Assembly: GCF_020447105.2 (NCBI RefSeq)
Contig: NZ_CP096184.1
Location: forward strand, 2,728,001 to 2,792,000
Origin: Demequina sp. TMPB413
Lineage (GTDB): Bacteria > Actinomycetota > Actinomycetes > Actinomycetales > Demequinaceae
Length of the DNA stretch: 64,000 nt
Direction: 5' to 3'
The notes beneath the pieces were generated by a model that was given only the letters and a program-made list of their open reading frames with translations, was not told the origin of the DNA and did not search any database. Positions 45,533 through 60,641 of this stretch are shown here, piece by piece (the stretch's first letter is position 1; every line of letters starts with the position of its first letter). A program made the translations under genes and the position numbers.

Positions 45533-45561
45533 TTGCAACATGGCATTTTTCGAGTTAGTCT
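45533..45561 (+). promoter_or_regulatory. Predicted nrdAB promoter
   Basis: TTGCAA at 45533-45538, a 17-base spacer and TAGTCT at 45556-45561. It would give a leader of about 135 bases before the GTG at 45704. The leader contains a 9-bp inverted repeat, CGCTCGGGC (45571-45579) and GCCCGAGCG (45611-45619). From 45300 to about 45480 I see no gene. Confidence 0.65.
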
Positions 45562-45703
45562 CGATCCCAACGCTCGGGCCGGTTTTGGGCGACCACGACC
45601 CCCATCACCAGCCCGAGCGAACGTCCCACACATCGCGTATGCAGGCCACTTACCGTCGGCAGCGAATTCGGGCCCAGTGGCCTACAGTCCCCAAAGGAGC
45701 ATC

Positions 45704-48700
45704 GTGACGATCACGGAGAACAACGCGGCTGGCGTCAACGGCGACGTCGCTTCCGCAGTAGCTGAAGTCAACCCACACCGTTCCGGTATTCACGTCACCA
45801 AGCGCGACGGCACCCGCGAGCCGTACAACGCCGACCGCATCAACAAGGCGATCGAGCGCGCTGCCGTCGGCCTTCCCGACCAGATCTCCATTACGACGCA
45901 GGTCGCGTCGGAGTTGGCCATCACCCTTTTCGACGGCATCACCACCGAGCAGCTGGACGAGGCCGCGATCGGCGTCGCGGTACAGAACGTCAAGGACGAC
46001 CCCAACTTCGACACGGTCGCCGCAAGGCTGCTCCGCAAGGTGATCTACAAGCGCGTGTTGGGCGGCTACGACAGCGAGCTTGAGTTGGCGCTGCTCCACC
46101 AGGCGCGGTTCCCCGGCTACATCCGCGACGCGGTCGAGGAGGGCCTGCTCGATCAGCGTCTGGTCTCCCACTTCGACCTCGACGCTCTCGCCGCCGCGAT
46201 CGACCACCGTCGCGACGACCTGCTGAAGTACATCGGCACCGTGACCATGCGCAACCGCTACATGATCACCGACCGCCACGGCAAGAGCCTTGAGGTCCCG
46301 CAGTACTTCTGGATGCGCGTCTGCATGGGGCTGTCGCTCAACGAGCCAAACCCCACCGAGATGGCTCTTCAGTTCTACGACAAGATCTCTCGTCTCGACT
46401 ACCTGCCAGCAGGGTCGACGCTGGTCAACGCAGGCACCTCGTACCCACAGCTGTCCAACTGCTTTGTGATGCAGATGGAAGACGACATGGACCACATCGC
46501 CAAGACCGTCGGCGATGTCATGTGGCTCACCAAGGGCACCGGCGGCATTGGCCTGTCTGTGACCAAGTTGCGCTCTGAGGGCTCGCCGATCAAGTCGAAC
46601 AACACCACGTCGACCGGGCCTATCCCGTTCATGCACACGATCGACTCGACGCTGCGTGCCGTGTCTCGCGGTGGCAAGAAGTTTGGCGCCCTGTGCTTCT
46701 ACATGGAGAACTGGCACCTTGACTTCCACCAATTCCTCGACTTGAGGCAGAACTCCGGCGACCCCTACCGCCGCACGCGCACCGCGAACACTGCGGTGTG
46801 GATCTCGGACGAGTTCATGAAGCGCGTTCGCAACGACGAGGACTGGTATCTGTTCGATCCCGCTGAGGCGCCCGACCTGGTCGAACTCGTCGGCTCCAAG
46901 TTCTCCGCGCGCTATGCCGAGTATGTGGCGATGGCCGAGTCCGGCAAGATCCGTGCCTTCAAGAAGATGAGGGCCCGCGAGCAGTACAAGTCGATCCTGA
47001 TTTCCCTGCAGGCGTCCTCGCACCCGTGGTTGACGTGGAAGGACACGATCAACAACCGCGCCCTCAACACCAACACCGGCACGATTCACCTGTCGAACCT
47101 GTGCACCGAGATCTGCCTCCCGCAAGACCGCGAGAACATCGCCGTGTGCAACCTGGCGTCCGTGAACCTCTCGACCCACTTGGTCGACGGTCAGATTGAC
47201 TGGAAGCGCATGGAGGCGTCGGTGCGGCTCGCGGTGCGCCAACTGGACAACCTGGTCGACATCACGCTGTCGTCAGTCCCCGAGTCGGAGCGCGCCAACA
47301 AGGAGAACCGCGCCATCGGCCTTGGCGTCATGGGCTTCACCGACGTCACCGAGCGGCTGGGCATGGCGTACGAGTCCGAGGAGTCCTACAACCTGATCGA
47401 CGAGATCGTCGAGTTCGTTTCCTTCCACGCGATCGATGAGTCGGCCGACCTTGCCCGCGAGCGCGGGTCCTATGACAACTTCGAGGGCTCCGGATGGTCA
47501 CAGGGCCTGGTGCCTTTCGACACGATCGACATCGCAGAGGCTGACCGCGGCGTGCCGATCACGGTCGACCGCACCACCCGACAGGACTGGGACTCACTGC
47601 GCGCCAAGGTCAAGCGCGGCATCCGCAACGCCACCCTCATGGCCGTCGCGCCCACCGCCTCGATCGGGCTCGTGGCAGGCACGACGCCAGGGTTCGACCC
47701 CCAGTTCTCGCAGATCTTCTCCCGCGCCACCTCGTCCGGCAAGTTCCTTGAGGTGAACCGCAACCTGGTGAAGGACCTTCAAGACCTGGACCTGTGGGAA
47801 GACGTCAAGGACGAGCTTCTGTCGGTGCAAGGAGACCTGTCCCAGATCGACTCGGTGCCAGAGCACCTCAAGGAGGTCTACAAGACCTCCTTCCAGCTCA
47901 GCCCCTACGCCTTCATCGAGGTGGCGGCACGTGCTCAGAAGTGGATCGACCAGGCCATCAGCCGCAACATCTACCTTGAGGACCGCGACGTCGAGCGGAT
48001 GATGGACCTTTATGCGGCAGCATGGGAGCGTGGCGTCAAGACCACGTACTACCTGCACATGAAGCCCCGCCACACGGCGGAGCAGTCGACCGTGCGCGTG
48101 AACAAGACCGAGAAGATCAACTCGACTGGTTCGGCCAACGGTCGCGGCAAGGGCTCCGCTGGCCCAGCCAAGCGCGGTTTCGGTGGGTTCGGCGGCGCCA
48201 AGAAGCAAGGTGTCGGCACGGCCACTGCAACGGCCGACGTCGTGGCGGGCGTTGAAGCGACCGTCACGACGGACGTCCAGGACCAGGCGGAGACGCCCGC
48301 TGCTCCGGCAGCGTCAGCCGCTACTGCCCAGCCAGCGAAGCGTGGCTTCGGCAGCGTGGCGCAGCCAGCGGCCGCACCGGTCGAGGCAGCGGTCGTGACC
48401 GAGCCAGCCTCCTCTGCCCCTTCCATCCAGCAGGCGCCAGCGTCTGTGATGTCTGCCCTCGCGGCGACGGCGTTCGCGCCTGCGCCCACTCGGCAGCCCG
48501 TGGTGCCGCCGTCGGCACTGCCCGAGCCGATCGACGAGCCCACCGCAAACGAAGAGGTGGATGAGATGAGCGGCGACGGACACCACGAGTCCTCCGCACC
48601 TGAGGGCGCGACGGTGCTCGAGGTGGTCGAGTCCGTAGCGACCTCGGCAGACGGTGACACCGAGCTCGTCGACGGCGTCGCATGTCCCGTCGACCCGATG

Positions 48701-48730
48701 GAACGACTCCAGTGCGAGTCCTGCCAGTAA
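45704..48730 (+). CDS. nrdA: Class I ribonucleotide reductase, alpha (catalytic) subunit
   Basis: Reduces ribonucleoside diphosphates to deoxyribonucleotides. 1008 residues from the GTG at 45704 (AAAGGAG five bases upstream). One N-terminal ATP-cone (about 28-115, HVTKRDGTREPYNADRINKAI). Catalytic cysteines in YPQLSNCFVMQ and, around the finger loop, NLCTEICLPQ and IAVCNLASVNLS, which also supply the Asn-Cys-Glu triad. The C-terminal shuttle pair is CESCQ (1004-1008). Between the barrel (ending near 790) and this tail is an Ala/Pro/Val-rich linker of roughly 200 residues with a duplicated AKRGFG motif, far longer than in E. coli NrdA. nrdB follows after 38 bases. No nrdI or nrdH is adjacent, which argues against class Ib. 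Confidence 0.96.
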   Translation: MTITENNAAGVNGDVASAVAEVNPHRSGIHVTKRDGTREPYNADRINKAIERAAVGLPDQISITTQVASELAITLFDGITTEQLDEAAIGVAVQNVKDDPNFDTVAARLLRKVIYKRVLGGYDSELELALLHQARFPGYIRDAVEEGLLDQRLVSHFDLDALAAAIDHRRDDLLKYIGTVTMRNRYMITDRHGKSLEVPQYFWMRVCMGLSLNEPNPTEMALQFYDKISRLDYLPAGSTLVNAGTSYPQLSNCFVMQMEDDMDHIAKTVGDVMWLTKGTGGIGLSVTKLRSEGSPIKSNNTTSTGPIPFMHTIDSTLRAVSRGGKKFGALCFYMENWHLDFHQFLDLRQNSGDPYRRTRTANTAVWISDEFMKRVRNDEDWYLFDPAEAPDLVELVGSKFSARYAEYVAMAESGKIRAFKKMRAREQYKSILISLQASSHPWLTWKDTINNRALNTNTGTIHLSNLCTEICLPQDRENIAVCNLASVNLSTHLVDGQIDWKRMEASVRLAVRQLDNLVDITLSSVPESERANKENRAIGLGVMGFTDVTERLGMAYESEESYNLIDEIVEFVSFHAIDESADLARERGSYDNFEGSGWSQGLVPFDTIDIAEADRGVPITVDRTTRQDWDSLRAKVKRGIRNATLMAVAPTASIGLVAGTTPGFDPQFSQIFSRATSSGKFLEVNRNLVKDLQDLDLWEDVKDELLSVQGDLSQIDSVPEHLKEVYKTSFQLSPYAFIEVAARAQKWIDQAISRNIYLEDRDVERMMDLYAAAWERGVKTTYYLHMKPRHTAEQSTVRVNKTEKINSTGSANGRGKGSAGPAKRGFGGFGGAKKQGVGTATATADVVAGVEATVTTDVQDQAETPAAPAASAATAQPAKRGFGSVAQPAAAPVEAAVVTEPASSAPSIQQAPASVMSALAATAFAPAPTRQPVVPPSALPEPIDEPTANEEVDEMSGDGHHESSAPEGATVLEVVESVATSADGDTELVDGVACPVDPMERLQCESCQ

Positions 48731-48768
48731 TCAGCCTTCCCGACCACGCAGACCATAAGGAGTAACTC

Positions 48769-49755
48769 ATGGGAATCCTCGGCACCGGCATTCAGGACGG
48801 CCTCCTGCTCAAGCCAGTCACCTACCAATGGGCCATGGACCTGTACGACCAGGCGGTCGCCAACACCTGGTTCCCCAACGAGATCCAGTTGGGTGAAGAC
48901 CTCGCGGACTTCAAGAAGATGACCGATGAGGAACGTCACGCCATCACGTTCCTCATGTCGTACTTCAATCCGAACGAGCTGCTCGTCAACAAGGCCCTTG
49001 CCTTCGGCGTCTACCCCTACATCAATGCCCCCGAGTGCCACCTGTACCTCGCGAAGCAGATGTGGGAAGAGGCGAACCACTGCATGTCGTTCGAGTACGT
49101 CCTCGAGACGTTCCCGATCAACCGCGAGCAGGCCTACGACTCCCACGTGACCGAGCCCTCCATGGCCGCCAAGGAGGAGTTCGAGGTCAAGTTCATCAAG
49201 CGAATGACCGAGGAGACCCTCGACATCACCACCACCGAGGGCAAGAAGGACTTTGTCCGCAACCTCGTCGCTTACAACATCATCCTTGAGGGAATCTGGT
49301 TCTACTCGGGCTTCATGGTGGCGCTCAGCTTCCGCCAGCGGAACCTGTTGCGCAACTTCGGCTCACTCATGGACTGGGTGATCCGCGACGAGTCGCTGCA
49401 CCTCCAGTTCGGCATCAACCTGATCCTCACGGTGCTCGAAGAGAACGAGGACCTGCAGGAGGAAGAGTTCGCCAACGAGATCCGCCAGATGATCATCGGC
49501 GCGGTCGAAATGGAGGAGGCCTACAACAGGGCCCTGCTTCCCACCGGCATCCTCGGGCTCAACGCCGACTACGTGAACCAGTACGTGAAGTACCTGGCAG
49601 ACCGCCGTCTCGAGGAGCTCGGTTTCGAGCCGTACTACAACGTCTCGAACCCGGCCAAGTGGATGGCGACGGCGAATGACACCTTGCAGTTGGTGAACTT
49701 CTTCGAAGCCACCAACACCTCCTACGAGGTGAATGGGCCCACGGGCAAGAAGTAG
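48769..49755 (+). CDS. nrdB: Ribonucleotide reductase beta subunit, class Ic-like (no radical tyrosine)
   Basis: The 328-residue ferritin-fold partner of NrdA. Six metal ligands can be placed: Glu70 (NPNELLVNK), Glu101 and His104 (WEEANHCMSF), Glu174 (IILEGIWFY), Glu208 and His211 (RDESLHLQF). Where class Ia/Ib enzymes have the radical Tyr, four residues after the His, this protein has Phe108, and the first ligand is Glu rather than Asp. Chlamydia trachomatis NrdB, the type class Ic enzyme with a Mn(IV)/Fe(III) cofactor, has the same residues (E89, E120, H123, F127, E193, E227, H230) with identical spacings of 31, 73 and 34, and Tyr110 matches its Tyr129. The C-terminus lacks an obvious extended Tyr tail. 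Ribosome site AAGGAG. Confidence 0.93.
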   Translation: MGILGTGIQDGLLLKPVTYQWAMDLYDQAVANTWFPNEIQLGEDLADFKKMTDEERHAITFLMSYFNPNELLVNKALAFGVYPYINAPECHLYLAKQMWEEANHCMSFEYVLETFPINREQAYDSHVTEPSMAAKEEFEVKFIKRMTEETLDITTTEGKKDFVRNLVAYNIILEGIWFYSGFMVALSFRQRNLLRNFGSLMDWVIRDESLHLQFGINLILTVLEENEDLQEEEFANEIRQMIIGAVEMEEAYNRALLPTGILGLNADYVNQYVKYLADRRLEELGFEPYYNVSNPAKWMATANDTLQLVNFFEATNTSYEVNGPTGKK

Positions 49756-49785
49756 GGGTTGGGGTCCGCGAGCCGCGCGACTTTA

Positions 49786-49821
49786 CTTTCCGAGGGCGAT
49801 CAGGCTTGATCCCTCGGAAAG
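49786..49821. terminator. Hairpin terminator after nrdB
   Basis: An 11-bp arm CTTTCCGAGGG pairs with CCCTCGGAAAG (the inner GATCA/TGATC extends the fold), 31 bases after the nrdB stop. The remaining 215 bases to the MFS gene contain only the palindrome listed next. Confidence 0.82.
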
Positions 49822-49928
49822 CAAAGGCGCGCGTCTCGCTACGTGCGCAGTCAGGAACAGCACCCTGCGTCCGCATTGGTCCCAACTGGCACTGGCGAGG
49901 TTCAGGCCGCGCGGAATAGCCTGGCTTG

Positions 49929-49940
49929 CGAAACGTTTCG
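49929..49940. promoter_or_regulatory. LacI-type operator palindrome upstream of the MFS gene
   Basis: A perfect 12-base palindrome CGAAACGTTTCG in the context TTGCGAAACGTTTCGATTA, about 100 bases before the MFS start. It fits the LacI/GalR operator style with a central CG step. No LacI-family gene is in the window, so the regulator is unknown. Confidence 0.5.
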
Positions 49941-50036
49941 ATTAAAGGCGGCTATCGCCGCAAACCCCTCGACGACGCGGGCGCCCCACCCGTGCGTCCC
50001 GTCGCGCCATGACTCGATCAGGAGGCAGCGCGCTCC

Positions 50037-51296
50037 ATGACTGCGCCCACGACGGTCGCCACCGCGACCCCCACCGTCCACGCCAACTACGGCGACACCC
50101 TCACCAAGGCGCAGCGGCTGACCTATGTCCTCATGCTGGGCGCGCTCGTCGCGCTCGGCCCCTTCACGATCGATCTGTACTTGCCAGCGTTCCCGTCGGT
50201 GGCGTCGGACCTCGCCACGTCGGCCGCGGCGATCCAACTGACGCTGACGGCCACCACCGTCGGCTTCGGACTCGGCCAACTCATCGTGGGGCCGCTATCT
50301 GACGCCATGGGACGTAGGCGCCCCTTGCTCATCGCCACTTCGGTGCACATCGTTGCGAGCGTCGGCGTGGCCATGGCTCCCTCCGTCGAGTGGGTCATGG
50401 CAGGCCGAGTCGTACAAGGAATGGGCGCTGCGGGTGGCGCGGTCGTCGCGATGGCGGTGGTCCGCGACCTGTTCGGTGGGCAACGCCTCATCAGGATGCT
50501 GTCGCGATTGGCACTCGTGATGGGTTTCGCGCCTGTCTTCGCGCCGGTCATCGGCTCGCAACTGTTGCGATTCGTCGAGTGGCGCGGCGTCTTCGTCTTC
50601 CTTGCCGCATACGGGCTCATCGTGACGGCCGTGGCCGGATTCATCCTCGTCGAAACCCTGCCCCATGAACGGCGAGGCCGCTTCTCCAGCGCCACCGTGG
50701 CGCGGCGCTACCGGCGCCTAGTCAAGGACCCCGCATTCATCGGGATTGCGGTGGTCGGTGCTGCGACGTTCACCGCGCTATTCGCCTATCTGTCCGCCTC
50801 CTCCTTCATCTTCCAGGACGTGTTCGGGCTGACGGCCCAGCAGTTCGGCCTTGTCTTCGGCCTCAACTCCATAGGACTTGTCGCAGGCACCCAGATCTCC
50901 GCTCGCCTGATGCGTCACGTCGCTCCACGAGTCGTGACCGCAGGAGGCCTCGGAATTATGACGGCAGGCGCGCTAGGGCTCCTGGTGTCGTCGCTGCTCG
51001 ACGCCGGACTGCTTGGCGTCGTCATCCCGCTGTTCTTTGTCATCGCGCCCGCTGGGCTCGTGATGCCCACCGTCCAGGTCATGGCCCTCGCGGACCACGC
51101 GACGGAGGCAGGCACGGCCGCGTCGCTCATCGGGGCAGCAAACATGGGCATCGCGGGGGCAGTCTCACCTCTGGTCGGCATCGGCGGAAACTCGCCAACG
51201 GCGATGGCTGTGGTGATGCTGGGAGCGCTCATGGTGGGCCAGGCGAGCCTGTGGCTCGTCGTGCGAGGCCGTACGACCAACGAAGTGATGGCCTGA
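50037..51296 (+). CDS. MFS multidrug exporter, Bcr/CflA family
   Basis: A 419-residue major facilitator with 12 helices. The loop 2-3 motif reads GPLSDAMGRRRPLL, motif C-like gapless helices follow (GAAGGAVVAMAVVRDLF matches the Bcr/CflA RALQGxGAAxGxVVxxAVVRD pattern), and the N-terminal GPFTIDLYLPAFP is the Bcr/CflA hallmark. Likely a proton-coupled drug efflux pump (bicyclomycin/chloramphenicol family); the substrate is inferred only at family level. ATG at 50037 with AGGAGG upstream. Confidence 0.93.
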   Translation: MTAPTTVATATPTVHANYGDTLTKAQRLTYVLMLGALVALGPFTIDLYLPAFPSVASDLATSAAAIQLTLTATTVGFGLGQLIVGPLSDAMGRRRPLLIATSVHIVASVGVAMAPSVEWVMAGRVVQGMGAAGGAVVAMAVVRDLFGGQRLIRMLSRLALVMGFAPVFAPVIGSQLLRFVEWRGVFVFLAAYGLIVTAVAGFILVETLPHERRGRFSSATVARRYRRLVKDPAFIGIAVVGAATFTALFAYLSASSFIFQDVFGLTAQQFGLVFGLNSIGLVAGTQISARLMRHVAPRVVTAGGLGIMTAGALGLLVSSLLDAGLLGVVIPLFFVIAPAGLVMPTVQVMALADHATEAGTAASLIGAANMGIAGAVSPLVGIGGNSPTAMAVVMLGALMVGQASLWLVVRGRTTNEVMA

Positions 51297-51359
51297 GGCC
51301 CGCCGAAAGGCTCCAGCGCACCCCCGCGCGGCCCCCTTCATGGTGAGTAGGTTGGGCTC

Positions 51360-51968
51360 ATGACTCGACGCGTGGCCATTCTGCTCTTCGATGACTTCGA
51401 CCTCATTGACGCTGGCGGGCCTTACGAGGTCTTTCTCACCGCGTCGCGCCTAGCGGAACGCGATGGACTCCCGCCTCAATACGAGGTGCTGTTGGTGAGC
51501 CCGTCCGGTGCCGACGCCGTAGCGTTCGGGGGCATGACGCTGACGGGCCTTCAGGAGGCTTCGGCCGTCGGCCGGGTCGACATTGCCATCGTCCCAGGCA
51601 CGATCGATGTGGCGCGAGCAGTCGCTGACTCGGCACTTGCCGCCGCAGTCGAGGCCCTACTCGGCGCGAGCGAGGTCACTGCCTCCGTCTGTACCGGAGC
51701 GTTTCTCTTGGCTGAGGCGGGGGCGCTCGTTGGCAAGAGCGCTACCACGCACTGGGAGGACGTGCCTCAACTAGCCCAGGCGGGGGGTGTACGCGAGGCG
51801 AGAACGGGCGTGCGGTGGGTCGACGAAGGCGCCATCGTGACGTCAGGCGGGCTCACGTCGGGAATCCACATGGCCCTTCATCTGGTGGCTCGCGACCATG
51901 GCGTGGAGCACGCGGTCCGTACCGCGCGGCAACTCGACCTCCCGTGGGATCCGGCCGGCGTTTCGTAA
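51360..51968 (+). CDS. DJ-1/PfpI family protein
   Basis: A 202-residue class I glutamine-amidotransferase-like protein. The nucleophile elbow is Cys111 in TASVCTGAFLLAEAGAL, with an acidic residue in LLFDDFDLIDAGGPYEV (a DJ-1 superfamily Asp/Glu pair) and THWEDVPQL after it. The closest known relatives are isonitrile hydratase (InhA) and the ligand domain of AraC-type GATase regulators, but no HTH is attached here. It follows the MFS gene by 63 bases and may be cotranscribed. Function not assignable. Confidence 0.9.
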   Translation: MTRRVAILLFDDFDLIDAGGPYEVFLTASRLAERDGLPPQYEVLLVSPSGADAVAFGGMTLTGLQEASAVGRVDIAIVPGTIDVARAVADSALAAAVEALLGASEVTASVCTGAFLLAEAGALVGKSATTHWEDVPQLAQAGGVREARTGVRWVDEGAIVTSGGLTSGIHMALHLVARDHGVEHAVRTARQLDLPWDPAGVS

Positions 51969-52010: not shown

Positions 52011-55000
52011 CTACTCGTCGGAGATCGTCACCGTGAGGGTGCTCAGCAGGAAGTTGTCGCCAGCGGTGCTGACGGTCACGGTGTGGACGCCCTGAGCGAC
52101 GCTGGCTGGCCGGAACAACTTTGCGTCGACGCCGAGCGTGTTGGCGTACTTGCCGCCGAACGCAGTGGAGTCCGCCGCGTTGCCGATGGCGCCATCGACG
52201 GCACCCGTGCCGTTCCATTGGAGTGGCATGTAGGTGGCATCGTCGACGTCGAGGCGGTCCCCGGTGAGGGCGCGGTCAGCTTCCCACGCAGTCCAGCCGA
52301 CGGTGACGTTGGCGTCCGACGACGTGGCGAACTGCACGTTCGCCGCCTTGCCAGAGGAGATCCACTGCGCTCCATCGAAGATCGCCACTCGCGAGTTTGC
52401 CAGGGTCGGGTCTTCGTAGATGACCGTCAGCGCAAAGCCGCCGTAATAGGTCTTGTCTCCATCGGTCATGGTCGATGGGAGAGCGATGTCGGCAAGCGAC
52501 CAGGTGCCTTCGAAGGCGTCGGCGTCCAGGAGCTCCGTGACGTCCAGGCGAGAGCGGTAGTACAGCCTGCCGCCTTCCTCCCGTTCCGCCGTGTTGTCCG
52601 CCGTGATCGCAGCGTAGTCCGCGGCGCCAGGGAGCTTGAGACGTGCGCTTGCGAGCTCGCCAACCATTGTGTCCGTCGCGACCCGGTTGGCCGACCACTC
52701 AAGAAGTGCGTACTCGACCTTGGCGCCCTCCGGCAGGTCAAGCTGAGTGGAGGCGGAATTGCGGATGCCGCCTGCCTCGTTCAGCGGAGTCATGACCCAG
52801 TTGTTGTTGTTGAACTTGCTGTCGGTAGAGGTTCCGACATAGTTCATGACGTCCGCGCAACGCGAGTCCGCATCCGGACCACAGCCAAGGAGCGTGGCAC
52901 CCACGTGGATCGCGGCAACTTGGCCCTCCGTGGAGTAGTCGACGTCCACGTCCTCTTCGTCGTCCAGATCTTCCAGACCGGTCAGGACGCTGTAGGTGAC
53001 GTGCTGTTCGCCGGAGGTGACGGAGAACGTGGTCTGCGCGTCCTCCGCGAGGTCAGAGTTGACCACCAGGTCAAGGTCGAGAGTGGCGTCGCTGCCTGCA
53101 GGCAGGACCGGCAGGATGCAGTCTGCGGTGGCAGTGTCATCGCTCAGCGTGCACTCCCATTCGCCGCTCGTGATGACGCCTTCGACGGCGAAGCGCATGT
53201 AGGACGCCAACCGCGACTGCGGGTACACCGCCGTGCCGCCACCGGCGGGGCTCGCCGCGGGCGGGGCGAAGCTCAGACCGGCGGGAAGGGTGATGATCGC
53301 ATCGATGGTGTCTGCGGCCGCGTCCCCTTGGTTGGATAGCGCCATCCCGATGACGGGCGCCGACCGGGTGATCTCTAGGTAGTCCAGCGGGGCCTTGCCA
53401 AGTGCAAGAACGGCCGTTGGCGTCGGGCCGCCGGTGCCACCACCGGACTCACCGCCAGTCTCACCGCCAGTCGAACCACCGGTCTCACCACCAGTCTCAC
53501 CACCGGTCTCACCGCCAGTCTCACCGCCAGTCTCACCGCCGGTCTCACCGCCGGTCTCACCGCCGGTCTCACCGCCAGTCGAACCGCCGGTCGTTGACCC
53601 GGTGTTCGCGCCAGCTGTCGGACCGGGGGTCGAACCAATCGTGGTGCCAACCGCTGCGCCCCCGTGACTGCCGGGAGCCTCAGGGGCCGGATCGATCTCT
53701 GGTTCTTCGACAGGTGGCGTGGTCGCTGGCGGCTGCTCGTCGGACGGCTGCTCACCGCGCCCGTCGTCCGTGTTGGGCGCCGGCGGCGGCGTGTTCGAGG
53801 TGTCCGGGAGAATGTTGGCAACAGACGCGGGCGGCGGGTCACTCTCGAAAGCGCCAAAGTAGCCTGCCCCGGCGACGGCCATGGTGGTGACTCCGACGAC
53901 TGCCGCTGCAGGGAGCAGAAAACTTCCAAGTCCCGCGAAGGCACTGGAAAGGGTCGTCGCGGTGCTTGCAGTGCCGGCGGCCGCCGCCGCACTGGCAACA
54001 GAGGAGGTGCCTGCGGCGCCGAGAACTGAGGTGCCTGCGGCGCCAGAGGTTGCCGCAGAGGTGGCGGCGGCAGTGGCCGCAGTGCCACTCGCCCCACCGG
54101 TGGTGAAGGCGGCACCGACGCCGACCGCTGTGGCGGTCCCGACCGCGGCCACGCCAGACGTACCTGCGCCGCCAGCGCCCGCAGCCACTGCCGAACCAGA
54201 GCCGGCGGTGGCACCCGCGCCAGCGCCGGTCGCAGCGCCGAGGGTTCCGCCGATAGGCAGCCCACCTTCGAGGGCAGAGATTCCCGCTGCACCAAGCACG
54301 AGCGGCGCGATGATGCCTCGCATGCCTCTGTTGACGTCTTGGAGTTCGGCCACGAGCGCCGCACACTTCTCGCACGTATTGACGTGTTCGTCGACCCGCG
54401 ACGACTCTCGCTTGTTGAGGCCGCCGCGCACGAAGGCTCCAAGCTGCGAGTTCACCGCCAGGCAGTTCACATCTTCCGCAGTCGCGAGATGCTGTTGCAG
54501 GTAGGCCTGGCGCAACGCTTCGCGTGCCCGGTATGACAGCGCCGCTACACCGTTGGCCGACAGGCCAAGCAGGGGTGCGATCTCCTTGGGACTCTTCTTC
54601 TCGACCTCCGTGTACCAGAGCACGGCTTGCCAGCGTTCTGGTAGCGAAGAGAAGGCGTGCGCCACGAGCCCTTGCTCGAAGTTGGCCATTGCAGGCTCGT
54701 CGGAAGAGGCTTCGTAGCCGAGCGCCGACTCGTAGGGCGACATGTCCTCGCGTGGCCTGGTGCGGATCCCCTTGTTGATGAGATCCATGCCGGTGCGGCG
54801 AACGATCGTGAAGAGATAGGCGCGGAAGGCGAGGTCAGGGCCATCGCCCCGCTGCAGTGCACGCAGCACCCGCGAGAAGGCCTCGGAGACGACGTCGTCG
54901 ATGTCCGTGGGCGTGTTCGTGTACTGCGCGGCCACCTTGCGCGCTGCGGAGGCGTGGCGCTCGTAGAGCACGCCAAAAGCCGCCGAGTCGCCGGCGCGCA

Positions 55001-55064
55001 CGCCTGCGATCAGCTCTGGATCGCTAGACGTTTCCGTCCATAACGCGATCATCTCTTGGCCCAT
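52011..55064 (-). CDS. ECF sigma factor fused to anti-sigma zinc finger, membrane helix and surface domain
   Basis: One 1017-residue polypeptide. Region 2 at about 15-100 (ERHASAARKVAAQYTNTPTDIDDVVSEAFSR) and region 4 at about 135-190 (LPERWQAVLWYTEVEKKSPKEIAPLLGLSANGVAALSYRAREALRQ) form an ECF sigma factor. A zinc anti-sigma motif H227-X3-C231-X2-C234 follows, then a Gly/Ala-rich stretch (250-375), a membrane helix (about 378-402), a Pro-rich linker, a Gly-Gly-Glu-Thr repeat tract (about 487-545), a DUF11-like strand region, and a C-terminal beta-rich surface domain of about 230 residues (YGGFALTVIYEDP...VAIFDG). It recalls the ECF52-type multidomain sigma factors of actinobacteria (subgroup from memory). 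ATG 55064 is chosen over upstream frames because region 2 begins soon after. Confidence 0.88.
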   Translation of the reverse strand: MGQEMIALWTETSSDPELIAGVRAGDSAAFGVLYERHASAARKVAAQYTNTPTDIDDVVSEAFSRVLRALQRGDGPDLAFRAYLFTIVRRTGMDLINKGIRTRPREDMSPYESALGYEASSDEPAMANFEQGLVAHAFSSLPERWQAVLWYTEVEKKSPKEIAPLLGLSANGVAALSYRAREALRQAYLQQHLATAEDVNCLAVNSQLGAFVRGGLNKRESSRVDEHVNTCEKCAALVAELQDVNRGMRGIIAPLVLGAAGISALEGGLPIGGTLGAATGAGAGATAGSGSAVAAGAGGAGTSGVAAVGTATAVGVGAAFTTGGASGTAATAAATSAATSGAAGTSVLGAAGTSSVASAAAAAGTASTATTLSSAFAGLGSFLLPAAAVVGVTTMAVAGAGYFGAFESDPPPASVANILPDTSNTPPPAPNTDDGRGEQPSDEQPPATTPPVEEPEIDPAPEAPGSHGGAAVGTTIGSTPGPTAGANTGSTTGGSTGGETGGETGGETGGETGGETGGETGGETGGETGGSTGGETGGESGGGTGGPTPTAVLALGKAPLDYLEITRSAPVIGMALSNQGDAAADTIDAIITLPAGLSFAPPAASPAGGGTAVYPQSRLASYMRFAVEGVITSGEWECTLSDDTATADCILPVLPAGSDATLDLDLVVNSDLAEDAQTTFSVTSGEQHVTYSVLTGLEDLDDEEDVDVDYSTEGQVAAIHVGATLLGCGPDADSRCADVMNYVGTSTDSKFNNNNWVMTPLNEAGGIRNSASTQLDLPEGAKVEYALLEWSANRVATDTMVGELASARLKLPGAADYAAITADNTAEREEGGRLYYRSRLDVTELLDADAFEGTWSLADIALPSTMTDGDKTYYGGFALTVIYEDPTLANSRVAIFDGAQWISSGKAANVQFATSSDANVTVGWTAWEADRALTGDRLDVDDATYMPLQWNGTGAVDGAIGNAADSTAFGGKYANTLGVDAKLFRPASVAQGVHTVTVSTAGDNFLLSTLTVTISDE
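53448..53590. repeat. 12-bp tandem repeat encoding Gly-Gly-Glu-Thr
   Basis: About a dozen near-identical 12-base units (plus strand CCGGTCTCACCG or CCAGTCTCACCA variants) encode GGET/GGST repeats in the extracytoplasmic linker of the sigma/anti-sigma fusion. The unit is a multiple of three, so length can change without loss of frame. Confidence 0.9.
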
Positions 55065-55245
55065 GTACTCGTCCGCCCTGCCCGGTGTGGGGAGATTCGT
55101 GCCCCTATCGTCTCCCCTTTGGGGGGTAATGCACAAGATCTCCCCCAGGTGGTATTGATCACATGGTGCGTGTGCGGCGTGTCGATGCGTCAAGAAACCC
55201 TCGCAAAGCGCGTCATAGAGGGGACCGTGGTCCCTCTCATGACAC

Positions 55246-56019
55246 ATGACGGGCAACGACCACCTCACGGGAACCGTGGGAACCTCGACTCTTCTGCACG
55301 CGTGGCAGACGGCGAGCATTGATTCTTGCTGGCTGCGACCGGGTGACTGGTACACGCCAGCGGTCGAGGCCCTCGTCGAGGCCTTGGAGGCTCGACTCGA
55401 CACCGCACCCGCAGCATTCCGCCTGGGTCAAGCGCGATCAGAGTCTGGCGTGGGGATCACAGAGGCGATCGACGACATGGCGGTGTTGTTCCGCTCCGCC
55501 GGCTTCGAGTCGGCGCCGATTCGCTCCATCCGCGCCTTGTGCGAGGGATGGACAGAGGGCACTGTTGCCTCTCCGGCCGCGCCGCAAATGGCGGACCCAG
55601 AATCTGGACTTGGCACGGCTGAGTACCTGACCCAACGCCTGTCCGAGGTATATGGGGCCGCCAAGCGACACGGCACCACGGTGACGGAAACTCACGCTCT
55701 GGTGATGATCGACGTGTCCGTTATCGACGCCGATCCGTGGCAACGGATGGCGCGCAATGCCGCCGTCGGGCAGGCACTCAAGAGCGCCTACGGAGATGGC
55801 CATCCCATGGCGAGACTGGGTGACGGCCTCTACGCCGTGCTCGTTGAGCGAGGGACCTCCCTCGGCAAGGGAGTCGCGGTGCTCCGCGATCACATCTCGG
55901 ATCGTGCCTTGACCATGAGCGTGGGCAACCTGATGCGTCAGCCACCCCGCGTGTGGATCGAGTCGCTCCCTGACACACACGCCTACGCGCACGACTTGAT
56001 TGAATCGATGCAGCGTTAG
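55246..56019 (+). CDS. Degenerate GGDEF-like protein
   Basis: A 257-residue soluble protein. The C-terminal half follows the order of a GGDEF domain: DPESGLGTAEYLTQRLSEVY (117-136, compare DxLTGLxNRRxL), ALVMIDVSVID (151-161, compare LxxxDxDxFK), WQRMARNAAVGQALKSAY, and MARLGDGLYAVLVER (188-202) where a diguanylate cyclase has ARxGGDEFxxLL. The signature is thus reduced to G-D-G-L-Y, so cyclase activity is not expected. The N-terminal 110 residues match nothing I know. It is divergent from the sigma/anti-sigma gene with 181 bases between, which include the palindrome CCCCTTTGGGG. Start ATG 55246 lacks a strong ribosome site. Confidence 0.65.
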   Translation: MTGNDHLTGTVGTSTLLHAWQTASIDSCWLRPGDWYTPAVEALVEALEARLDTAPAAFRLGQARSESGVGITEAIDDMAVLFRSAGFESAPIRSIRALCEGWTEGTVASPAAPQMADPESGLGTAEYLTQRLSEVYGAAKRHGTTVTETHALVMIDVSVIDADPWQRMARNAAVGQALKSAYGDGHPMARLGDGLYAVLVERGTSLGKGVAVLRDHISDRALTMSVGNLMRQPPRVWIESLPDTHAYAHDLIESMQR

Positions 56020-57924: not shown

Positions 57925-57990
57925 GGCGACACAGTACGACGGACGTCCGACAAATGCCCTGCCGACGGGAGGCGCCGGTACCGTGGTCGT

Positions 57991-58218
57991 GTGACCAGGT
58001 ACCGCGTCCACGTGAAGCCGGGCTCGAAGAAGGGCCCGCTGGTTCAGGTCGGAGCCGACGGCCTGCTCACCGTTTTTGTACGGGAGCGTGCCGTGGACGG
58101 CCAAGCGAACGACGGCGTCGTCGCGGCGCTCGCAGAGCATTGGGGGCTGCGCAAACGGGACGTCCGTATCACCTCTGGCCACGCCTCCCGCCTCAAGACG
58201 GTGGAGATCAGCGACTAG
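57991..58218 (+). CDS. DUF167 (YggU) family protein
   Basis: A 75-residue small alpha/beta protein with the YggU pattern: VHVKPGSKKGPL, VFVRERAVDGQANDGVVAALAEHWGLRKRDVRITSGHASRLKTVEI. It starts at a GTG at 57991. Function unknown despite wide conservation. It is divergent from the DrrA-type ATPase gene. Confidence 0.92.
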   Translation: MTRYRVHVKPGSKKGPLVQVGADGLLTVFVRERAVDGQANDGVVAALAEHWGLRKRDVRITSGHASRLKTVEISD

Positions 58219-58301
58219 TCAGGCTGCCATCATCTCCAGTTTGTGCGACCACTTTGTCACAGTCGACTCACCGCGCATCCGCCCGGGACGATGAGAAGGC
58301 T

Positions 58302-60641
58302 GTGAACCGCGTTCTTGCCTCTCTCGACGGCGTGAGGCGGCATGCCCTCCGACCCGTTGGTCGCTACGTTGCGCCTGTCTCGCTCGCACTCTTGGCGTCT
58401 GGTTGGCTGGTCTTGTTCGCATTGCTCCTCACCTGGGGGCCAGGGGACTACCCTGGCCGCGACGTCACCCTGTATTTGACACTGATGATTGGTGCAGGGG
58501 TGGCCGTCCTTGCCCGAGCCGCCACATCCCACACCGATCGGTTTGCGTGGCTCTCGCTCGGATTGGCGATGATCGTGTCGTCCATTGGGGACGCCGTCTA
58601 CTCGGCGATCACCTCTGGCTCGGACGCGGAGCCGTTTCCCTCACTCGCCGATGCCTTCTACCTTGCCTATTACCCGCTGATCATCGCCGGCGTCGTCGCT
58701 TTCGTACGGCGCCGCGCGCGCGACGTTCCTTCTGTGGTGTGGTGGGACGGTTCGATATTGGCGGTTGCCGTCGGGGCGCTCGTCGGCGCCGTCTTCCTGG
58801 CGCCGCTGACGGGAACTCTCACGGGCGGCCCTCTCACCGTGATCGTCGGCGCCGCGTATCCGCTCGGAGACACGGCGGTACTCCTCATCGCGGCACTCGG
58901 CATCACGCTGGTGGGCGTGCGTCGCGCCCGCGCTCTGGTGTGGATGGGCGCCGCCATGGGCGTGTCAGCCATCGCCGACCTCGGGTATTGGAACCTCGTC
59001 GCGAGCGACTCCTACCTGGAAGGAACGGTGCTCGACGCGTTGTGGCCGCTGAGCAACATCCTGCTTGCCGTGGGGGCGTGGCTCTCGCCTTCGTCGACGG
59101 GCGATCAGATGCCAGGCACAAGAGGCCTCATGATCGTCCCCGGCGCCAGCCTGATCGCGGCCACTGCGACCCTCGCGTTTGGCAACGCGCGCAACATTCC
59201 GCTCCTCACGGTCGTGCTGGCGGTCGCTGCATTGCTGGGAGTCCTTCACCGGCTCAACACCACCGTGCGACACACCGTGCTCATGATGGACGCGCGCAAG
59301 GACGCCACCACCGACGAGCTCACCGGCCTCGCGAACCGACGCGGCTTCACCGTGGCGGCTGAGGGCGCGCTGCGCGATCTCGACGCTGGGATGTGCGCTG
59401 CTCTTCTCCACGCCGACTTGGACGGCTTCAAGGACGTGAACGACAGTTTGGGGCACGACGCTGGGGACAGGGTCCTCCGCCACGTCACTCAGCGACTTGT
59501 CGCCGAGCGGGCGCCTGCTGGCACTTTGGTGGGCAGGCTGGGCGGTGACGAATTCGCAGTCCTCATTCCGGGCGCCGACGCCGATGAGGCGGTGAAGTAC
59601 GCCCGCCGGCTCTGCACGTCGCTCGCTCGCCCGATCGACGTGGACGGCACGCGGGTCACGATGCACGCGAGCATTGGCCTCGCGATCGCCCCGATCGACG
59701 GCGACCAACTCTCCACGCTTCTCCGCAGGGCCGATATCGCGATGTACCGCGCGAAGGCTGACCGCGGAGGGGTCGCCTCCTTCGATCCCGCGGTTGACCT
59801 GGCTGGCGAGGATCACCTTCAACGAGTCGCAGAACTGCGGCAAGGGATCCTTGCGGGCGAACTCGTGCTCCACTATCAGCCCAAGATCGCACTCGCCGAT
59901 GGAGGGGTCGAAGGTGTCGAGGCCCTGGTGCGCTGGGCCAGGCCCGCTAGCGGCTTGGTGTACCCCGGAGACTTCTTGCCCCTAGCGGTACGTGCAGGGC
60001 TGATGGGCATGGTGACCAGAGCCGTGTTGGAGATCGCCGCCGATCAGGCATCGGCATGGCGCCGAAGCGGGCTCGAACTGCCGATCGCCATCAATTTGCC
60101 GTCCACGGCACTTCTTGACGAAGGATTGCCAGCGAAGGCCGCCCAGTTCCTCGCCACGCATGACCTGCCGGGGTCTGCGATCCAGGTCGAGATCACCGAG
60201 GAGGCCCTCTTGAGGGGGCGCCAACGCGCTCGTAGCGTCCTCGAAGGGCTGCGGGCTCTGGGCATCAGGACGGCAATCGATGACTACGGGACGGGCTACT
60301 CGTCGCTGATCTACCTTCACGAACTCGTGGTCGATGAGGTAAAGATCGACAGGTCCTTCATCGAGCCGCTCCTGCTCAGCGACCGATCCTCGTACATCGT
60401 GAAGTCGACGATCGACCTGGCGCACGCGCTCGGTCTGACCGTGACGGCGGAGGGGGTTGAACACGCCGACGTCGCCCAGGCACTCAAAGACCTTGGTTGC
60501 GACACCGCGCAGGGGTACTACTGGTCGCGTCCGTGCCCAGCGGCAGAACTCGAGGCCTGGCTCGCGGTCCACAGGAGCGCGTCTCAAGACGAAATGCTGG
60601 ACAGCGCTCTCGGCCTTCGCGCGTCGCCCGTGGCCGACTAG
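58302..60641 (+). CDS. Membrane GGDEF-EAL protein (c-di-GMP cyclase/phosphodiesterase)
   Basis: A 779-residue protein from the GTG at 58302 (GAGAAGG upstream). About eight to nine membrane helices (20-335) form a MASE-like sensor. A GGDEF domain follows with DELTGLANRRGF and intact signature GGDEF (414-418). There is no RxxD inhibitory site five residues before it. An EAL domain has Glu540-Ala-Leu (VEALVRW), TEEALL, the DDYGTGYSSL metal motif (Asp660-661) and KIDRSFI, so both catalytic sites look functional. Which activity dominates cannot be told from sequence. Its 3' end is 9 bases from convergent hspR. Confidence 0.94.
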   Translation: MNRVLASLDGVRRHALRPVGRYVAPVSLALLASGWLVLFALLLTWGPGDYPGRDVTLYLTLMIGAGVAVLARAATSHTDRFAWLSLGLAMIVSSIGDAVYSAITSGSDAEPFPSLADAFYLAYYPLIIAGVVAFVRRRARDVPSVVWWDGSILAVAVGALVGAVFLAPLTGTLTGGPLTVIVGAAYPLGDTAVLLIAALGITLVGVRRARALVWMGAAMGVSAIADLGYWNLVASDSYLEGTVLDALWPLSNILLAVGAWLSPSSTGDQMPGTRGLMIVPGASLIAATATLAFGNARNIPLLTVVLAVAALLGVLHRLNTTVRHTVLMMDARKDATTDELTGLANRRGFTVAAEGALRDLDAGMCAALLHADLDGFKDVNDSLGHDAGDRVLRHVTQRLVAERAPAGTLVGRLGGDEFAVLIPGADADEAVKYARRLCTSLARPIDVDGTRVTMHASIGLAIAPIDGDQLSTLLRRADIAMYRAKADRGGVASFDPAVDLAGEDHLQRVAELRQGILAGELVLHYQPKIALADGGVEGVEALVRWARPASGLVYPGDFLPLAVRAGLMGMVTRAVLEIAADQASAWRRSGLELPIAINLPSTALLDEGLPAKAAQFLATHDLPGSAIQVEITEEALLRGRQRARSVLEGLRALGIRTAIDDYGTGYSSLIYLHELVVDEVKIDRSFIEPLLLSDRSSYIVKSTIDLAHALGLTVTAEGVEHADVAQALKDLGCDTAQGYYWSRPCPAAELEAWLAVHRSASQDEMLDSALGLRASPVAD

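Follow-up and report, generated by a model that had tools for sequence, protein, structure and literature searches.

How would a sigma factor be set free if it is built into one polypeptide with its anti-sigma domain, a membrane helix and a domain for the cell surface, and which genes would it then control? This question is raised by a gene of Demequina sp. TMPB413 (contig NZ_CP096184.1), located at 52011..55064 on the minus strand of a 64,000-nucleotide stretch that spans forward-strand positions 2,728,001 to 2,792,000 of the contig. We call this whole stretch the window, and feature coordinates count from its first letter. The gene is one uninterrupted open reading frame (ORF) of 1017 residues, comprising sigma factor, anti-sigma finger, membrane helix, linker and surface domain. 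We consider it probable that its product is a self-inhibited, membrane-tethered and surface-signalled sigma factor of the extracytoplasmic function (ECF) type, which would be freed by proteolysis and control a small regulon through promoters of the form GCGTCAT-N18-TCTCAT.

The N-terminal part of the protein is readily recognized. Sigma region 2 (residues 33-98, 54771..54968; Pfam PF04542, Sigma70_r2, 5.1e-13), sigma region 4 (residues 134-184, 54513..54665; PF08281, Sigma70_r4_2, 7.4e-6) and a zf-HC2 anti-sigma zinc finger (residues 201-235, 54360..54464; PF13490, 2.8e-5) follow each other in that order, all on the minus strand, and each exceeds its curated Pfam cut-off. The ECF superfamily model of NCBIfam, TIGR02937, matches at 2e-22 with 79.6 bits versus a cut-off of 42.9, and the best PDB profile matches of the protein are ECF sigma factors. 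In VIA-align superpositions, residues 13-105 fit region 2 of sigmaE (4lup_A; Z 14.3, root-mean-square deviation (rmsd) 1.8, 90 aligned residues) and residues 116-195 fit the -35-binding domain of SigL (3hug_A; Z 10.8, rmsd 3.8, 80 aligned). An AlphaFold model of residues 1-420 is highly confident in the sigma domains and in the finger helices up to about residue 240, and falls to about 60 at 251-270 and to less than 50 over most of the Ala/Gly tract described below. All 31 aligned rows, the one from the window among them, keep the zinc ligands H227-x3-C231-x2-C234 unchanged. An earlier note, made from the letters of this DNA, had named ECF regions 2 and 4 in one polypeptide together with the H-X3-C-X2-C motif, and had proposed a domain search; the search recovered sigma2, sigma4 and zf-HC2, and the coordinates of the note were exact. 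The note had also pointed out a GGET tract and YYGGFALTVIYEDP...FDG, both of which are there as written.

The unusual length alone might suggest that a sequencing error or a chance join has fused separate genes, a possibility which the earlier note had itself named among those that would overturn it. A scan of contigs gave 31 related loci, from records titled Demequina, Demequinaceae or actinobacteria, and one long ORF with identical order of parts is present in 27 of them (L029, among these, carries an internal deletion). Of the remaining four, L004 and L028 are cut short by the end of the stored sequence, and the frame appears broken in L025 and L030. Throughout the order, the sigma-finger switch is matched at E <= 1e-40 in 95 of 297 genomes, mostly within open frames of 480-1640 residues. 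An artefact of joining is thus hardly conceivable and we reject it: in the orthologues the parts are united in one ORF at 27 of the 31 loci, and frames of at least 480 residues accompany most of the matches in the order. Four alignments were used: A1 with 31 rows (without L030), A2 with 26 rows (without L004, L025, L028, L029, L030 and L032), A3 with 49 rows and A4 with 40 rows (L071, which showed stops within the coordinates used, was dropped). Identity to the window amounts to 69-92% over residues 1-275 (30 rows) versus 40-69% over residues 547-1017 (25 rows), so the sensor evolves faster than the switch. Two short frames, L065 (G159, 263 residues) and L066 (G088, 251 residues), consist of sigma and finger without the membrane part and end before the first hydrophobic segment; they are possible soluble versions of the switch.

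The C-terminal surface region (residues 547-1017, about 470 residues, 52014..53426) is modelled as beta domains (pLDDT 90.9, pTM 0.87), the first of them immunoglobulin-like (Ig-like), and cysteines 638, 649, 728 and 736 are invariant in 26 rows. Its fold matches are Ig-like domains of alpha-2-macroglobulin, integrin and adhesin (best Z 11.2, rmsd 2.7, 112 aligned); they mainly cover the first 150 residues, are generic and point to no ligand. No Pfam family is found in 547-1017 at E <= 0.01, sequence searches of Pfam, NCBIfam and PDB are blank for the outer domain, and with the whole protein at E <= 1 sigma and finger are the only Pfam families. A carbohydrate-binding domain was likewise undetected in the outer region by Pfam; the fold by itself is compatible with sugar binding.

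Whether this region indeed lies outside depends on how many times the chain crosses the membrane. Hydropathy gives two main candidate segments, 248-268 (54261..54323, IIAPLVLGxxG with invariant Pro254) and approximately 379-403 (53856..53930; a model helix at 388-402, low confidence). Where the earlier note had a single membrane helix, two hydrophobic segments are present, the first of them directly behind the zinc motif. Between them extends a nearly charge-free tract rich in Ala, Gly, Ser and Thr (272-370, 53955..54251), the length of which differs among species. Beyond the second follows the outer linker (407-546, 53427..53846), first acidic and Pro-rich, then with Gly/Thr/Glu repeats that include the GGET-type tract (53436..53597, ends approximate). 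Outside the genus, charge was counted on either side of the main helix in 25 proteins from 23 loci: the preceding 15 residues have 29 K/R and 2 D/E, the following 15 have 10 K/R and 57 D/E. In 33 Demequina rows, some of them doubled where one ORF has two hidden Markov model domains, the figures are 1 K/R and 0 D/E before, 5 K/R and 79 D/E after. Left out of this count were L001 and L035-L057, as copies, and any ORF whose second helix is unclear.

If segment 248-268 spanned the membrane as well, the Ala/Gly tract would form an outside loop and the beta domain would be cytoplasmic. The segment reaches 1.72 in 19-residue mean hydropathy and is hydrophobic in most relatives. Two further points weaken our assignment: the charge before the main helix is too sparse in Demequina to decide the topology, and the model, with pLDDT about 60 at 248-268, leaves room for a second membrane helix that would place the C-terminus inside. 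The charge pattern of relatives nevertheless implies that the second helix has its N-terminal side in the cytoplasm, and the four invariant cysteines and Ig-like folds of the C-terminal domain speak against a cytoplasmic position. At the position corresponding to 248-268, zinc anti-sigma domains have an additional helix. The segment directly follows the finger and its proline is invariant in 49 rows; we take it to be, probably, the final portion of the anti-sigma domain and not a spanning helix. We therefore regard two membrane helices as quite unlikely. The charge pattern of relatives, the cysteines and the folds favour one spanning helix with the C-terminus outside, and so disfavour the inside C-terminus which the earlier note had seen as fatal to its proposal.

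That note had also remarked that these parts are normally two or three proteins. This understates the matter, since a fused sigma, anti-sigma and tether is an already described kind of protein in Actinobacteria (ECF48, ECF52 and ECF53). ECF48 and ECF53 have a C-terminally fused zinc finger with one or two membrane helices, and proteolytic release is expected for them (PMC8999054); our protein resembles them, by layout alone, in its C-terminal zinc finger and membrane part. The same fused layout of ECF48, ECF52 and ECF53 also appears in PMC10766802, and the available part of PMC8103513 does not name these groups. The best understood member among the three is SCO4117 of Streptomyces coelicolor (PMC8999054). 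Like our protein, ECF52/SCO4117 consists of ECF domain, zf-HC2, membrane region, Pro-rich outer linker and outer domain, and is found in Actinobacteria (PMC5826349). In contrast, the outer domain of ECF52 is carbohydrate-binding, none such being detected by Pfam in our protein, and SCO4117 adjoins atrA (PMC5826349), whereas the gene studied here has a fixed divergent partner. IutY of Pseudomonas putida (ECF243) is similar in being fused to its membrane anti-sigma factor, but it comes from a Gram-negative species and serves cell-surface signalling of the iron-starvation type for aerobactin (PMC8999054).

The partner gene (55246..56019, plus strand) encodes 257 residues. Its family occupies 50 places in 48 of the 297 genomes of the order, and a script comparison found all 50 divergent from a match to the sigma fusion, with 101-663 bases between the aligned parts. 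In the class, 27 of 296 genomes carry the family, and 25 of these belong to other orders. Four of the latter loci (L197-L200) were examined, and in each a sigma-plus-finger match is again divergent from the partner; two of these sigma frames are truncated at the locus boundary. A fixed divergent partner beside this kind of sigma gene is new here. Among listed papers on ECF factors with fused domains, on ECF52/ECF53, ECF classification and bldC, and on Demequina and Cellulomonas, no title or abstract opening pointed to the gene pair. The nature of the partner is less apparent: it matches no Pfam family, and only a faint likeness to GGDEF domains is seen, in its second half. A putative GGDEF protein is the best PDB match (E 0.021), followed by unrelated chains at 0.24-0.38. 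Among 40 members, two match Pfam GGDEF_2 (best 0.028) and four PilX (best 0.01), and hhalign of the partner against two GGDEF rows gives Prob 1.6 and E 0.032. With other weak matches scoring about equally, we treat the GGDEF label as a lead.

The space between the two genes contains a conserved element. Intergenic alignment of the 31 loci revealed, at constant spacing, a putative promoter of the partner, GCGTCAT-N18-TCTCAT (55210..55240, plus strand). GCGTCAT is present in 31 of 31 partner upstream regions, and 29 of these also have TCTCAT at N18, which completes the 13-base form. Throughout 41 genomes of the genus, this form occurs in 88 copies in 40 genomes, versus 0 for the reversed pattern. 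The same words at other spacings yield 6 copies in total for 12-17 and 18 in total for 19-24 (about 2 per spacing), and the enrichment therefore belongs to the N18 spacing and not to word usage. A promoter-like bipartite motif, such as the earlier note had suggested looking for at 55065-55245, is present there (55210-55240), though oriented towards the partner gene and away from the sigma gene. The promoter words and their spacing for the partner of a tethered sigma appear to be new here. Two other descriptions of the element were set aside. GCGTCAT as a -10 element with an A-rich -35 was dropped, as the A-rich part is lost outside Demequina while the partner word at N18 is mostly kept, and the shorter motif CGTCAT-N18-TCTCA proved too loose, matching 225 of 297 genomes, hence our use of the 13-base form.

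A start site can be proposed as well. In 39 of 42 sites other than those of the partner, picked by their downstream gene, a pyrimidine and a purine occupy the fifth and sixth base past TCTCAT, whereas 19 other offsets average 25%; the binomial value of 2e-20 is overstated, many of the sites being orthologous or of shared descent. Pyrimidine-purine at one offset suggests a start 11 bases past the first T of TCTCAT. This would set GCGTCAT at -36 to -30 and TCTCAT at -11 to -6, an arrangement like that of sigma70-family promoters. The predicted start for the partner in the window is 55246, on the A of its ATG, and the message is thus predicted to be leaderless. An inverted repeat, CTCAT-N5-ATGAG, extends across the predicted start site in several species (55230-55250 in the window).

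Which genes follow the motif elsewhere? From its matches, 60 selected surrounding regions were fetched, which hold 62 distinct sites, and the 869 bases past each site were compared by blastx with eight reference proteins (six from the fetched set, the partner from the window and an NIT protein from L150). Seven kinds of genes are preceded by 48 of the 62 sites: LRV (23), LuxR (7), Tat (5), BldC (4), NIT (3), partner (3) and EAL (3), so that 45 sites of these kinds are not those of the partner. The downstream proteins match Pfam LRV at 1.9e-6, NIT at 1.8e-20, EAL at 2.8e-46 and 1e-12, and GerE at 8.3e-13, and BldC is matched by NCBIfam HTH_BldC at 4.1e-29 (100.2 bits versus a cut-off of 77). 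The Tat-type label reflects a twin-arginine signal as we read it, with no family match. The genome of strain TMPB413 has exact sites before the partner (2783210), BldC (2131335) and an LRV protein (1785812), and a site with one mismatch (2264229) precedes a protein with an NIT domain. A fourth exact match, at 301918, lies over the beginning of a transporter-like ORF and was taken as chance. When two mismatches are allowed, 103 places appear in this genome versus 22 for a reversed control, which is of little use apart from 2264229. Family f9 supplies all seven LuxR and two of the three EAL sites, and the BldC, NIT and Tat sites are from Demequina; the target list thus shifts between families. 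The idea of a coherent regulon is weakened by 14 of the 62 sites, which have no recurrent downstream gene, and by three of the five Tat and two LRV assignments, which are short or weak (one Tat match lies 742 bases on). Where the earlier note held the target genes to be unknown, we can now name a conserved motif and recurrent downstream genes, with a presumed link to this sigma factor.

We think it likely that the sigma-fusion protein reads GCGTCAT-N18-TCTCAT. Besides the partner promoters, of which 31 of 31 hold the first word and 29 of 31 both, this is suggested by co-occurrence: when a close orthologue is defined by E <= 1e-90, the exact motif is found in 34 of 41 genomes with such an orthologue versus 29 of 256 others, and one identical sequence, which we read as coding, accounts for four genomes among the matches without a close orthologue. 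Within family f9, the motif is present in 11 of 17 genomes with a close orthologue versus 0 of 6 without (Fisher p 0.014).

Several observations weigh against this assignment. The E <= 1e-90 cut was placed at a gap after viewing the list, and the co-occurrence is confounded by ancestry. An exact copy is absent in 6 of the 17 f9 genomes and in one Demequina genome (G103), and a loose pattern found no copy at the four partner loci of other orders (L197-L200). The sigma gene has no motif upstream in its own direction. Finally, the genome of TMPB413 has 21 matches to sigma region 2, this one included, any other of which could read the motif. The tethered sigma might then be real while another sigma factor uses the motif promoters, and the partner would adjoin for other reasons. 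The 21 candidates and the missing copies at the four distant loci favour such a separation, and so do the different blocks upstream of the sigma gene, CTTG ... GGRANNAT. It is difficult to reconcile with the constancy of the partner promoters and with the distribution of the motif, including its absence from all six f9 genomes that lack a close orthologue, and we consider it unlikely, though by no means far-fetched. The blocks just mentioned belong to a conserved pattern on the sigma-gene strand (GTGTGAC-AAT and CTTG...GGRANNAT, window 55065-55240) which is found across Demequina and is unlike the partner promoter; it suggests the sigma gene's own promoter, perhaps with an operator. In L137 (G271, family f6), an exact motif lies upstream of a 161-residue ORF that precedes a codirectional sigma fusion, an arrangement possibly representing autoregulation. 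The promoter motif proposed for SCO4117, CSGYN-17-SRHA, is termed theoretical by its authors (PMC5826349); by eye it does not fit the GCGTCAT-N18-TCTCAT which we putatively link to our sigma factor.

A possible mechanism starts with the N-terminal sigma2-sigma4 pair, which would be held by the anti-sigma zinc finger following on the same chain. One membrane helix would cross outward, and the long Pro/Gly linker would carry the beta-rich surface domain. Upon an event at the surface, site 1 cleavage near the membrane would be followed by an intramembrane cut of the M50 type; after the finger is cleared, the sigma domain would be free to start transcription at GCGTCAT-N18-TCTCAT promoters. In its own genome, the targets would be the divergent partner, the LRV protein, BldC and the NIT-domain protein; other Demequina would add Tat-type secreted and EAL proteins, and family f9 LuxR-type and EAL proteins. 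The sequence itself shows the domains, their conservation, the fixed partner, the motif and the downstream genes, whereas proteolytic release, its signal and the connection of sigma and motif are inferences of ours. The order of cleavages is proposed by analogy with IutY and with the model for SCO4117, whose release by an uncharacterised protease has been proposed (PMC5826349). A gene for an M50 protease is present (508-residue frame, 4.6e-43), and a second frame of 370 residues matches in two pieces. When the earlier note spoke of a sigma factor permanently tied to the membrane and to its own outside sensor, with release by proteolysis or a conformational signal, it gave a picture that fits the domain order, the charge pattern of relatives, the invariant cysteines and the published models for SCO4117/ECF52 and IutY.

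Release might instead be brought about by a conformational signal, such as a redox change or zinc loss at the finger or a ligand pulling on the tether, with no proteolysis at all. Oxidative stress is the normal stimulus of soluble anti-sigma factors that contain a zinc anti-sigma domain (PMC8999054), and the frames of G159 (263 residues) and G088 (251 residues) show sigma and finger without a membrane part. A sigma factor that stays tethered would, however, need to act at the membrane, and IutY, described as the sole fused case with tested release, is freed proteolytically by Prc and RseP (PMC8999054). We find a purely conformational release improbable, and prefer proteolysis.

As for the surroundings, nrdE, nrdF, an MFS transporter and a DJ-1/FtrA-like protein (45533-51968) have counterparts beside the sigma gene in most Demequina loci. 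Beyond the partner and two ABC-transporter genes lies a GGDEF-EAL gene (57954-60641), which was matched in four fetched loci only.

Taken together, fused tethered sigma factors have been predicted in several actinobacterial groups, and here the promoter words, their spacing, the start and a short target list can be read from the sequence, by which it becomes testable what such a switch controls. More tentatively, and with considerable doubt on our part, one can imagine that a surface-sensing single-protein switch heads a small and old developmental or second-messenger regulon in Demequina and related actinobacteria. The sigma factor would be freed by contact or by stress on the wall, and would in turn switch on a degenerate GGDEF-like partner (for feedback or as a reader of cyclic di-GMP), BldC, NIT and EAL proteins from a distinct class of promoters, leaderless at the partner. 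If our assumptions are true, they would tie such a switch to BldC and EAL-type proteins outside Streptomyces.

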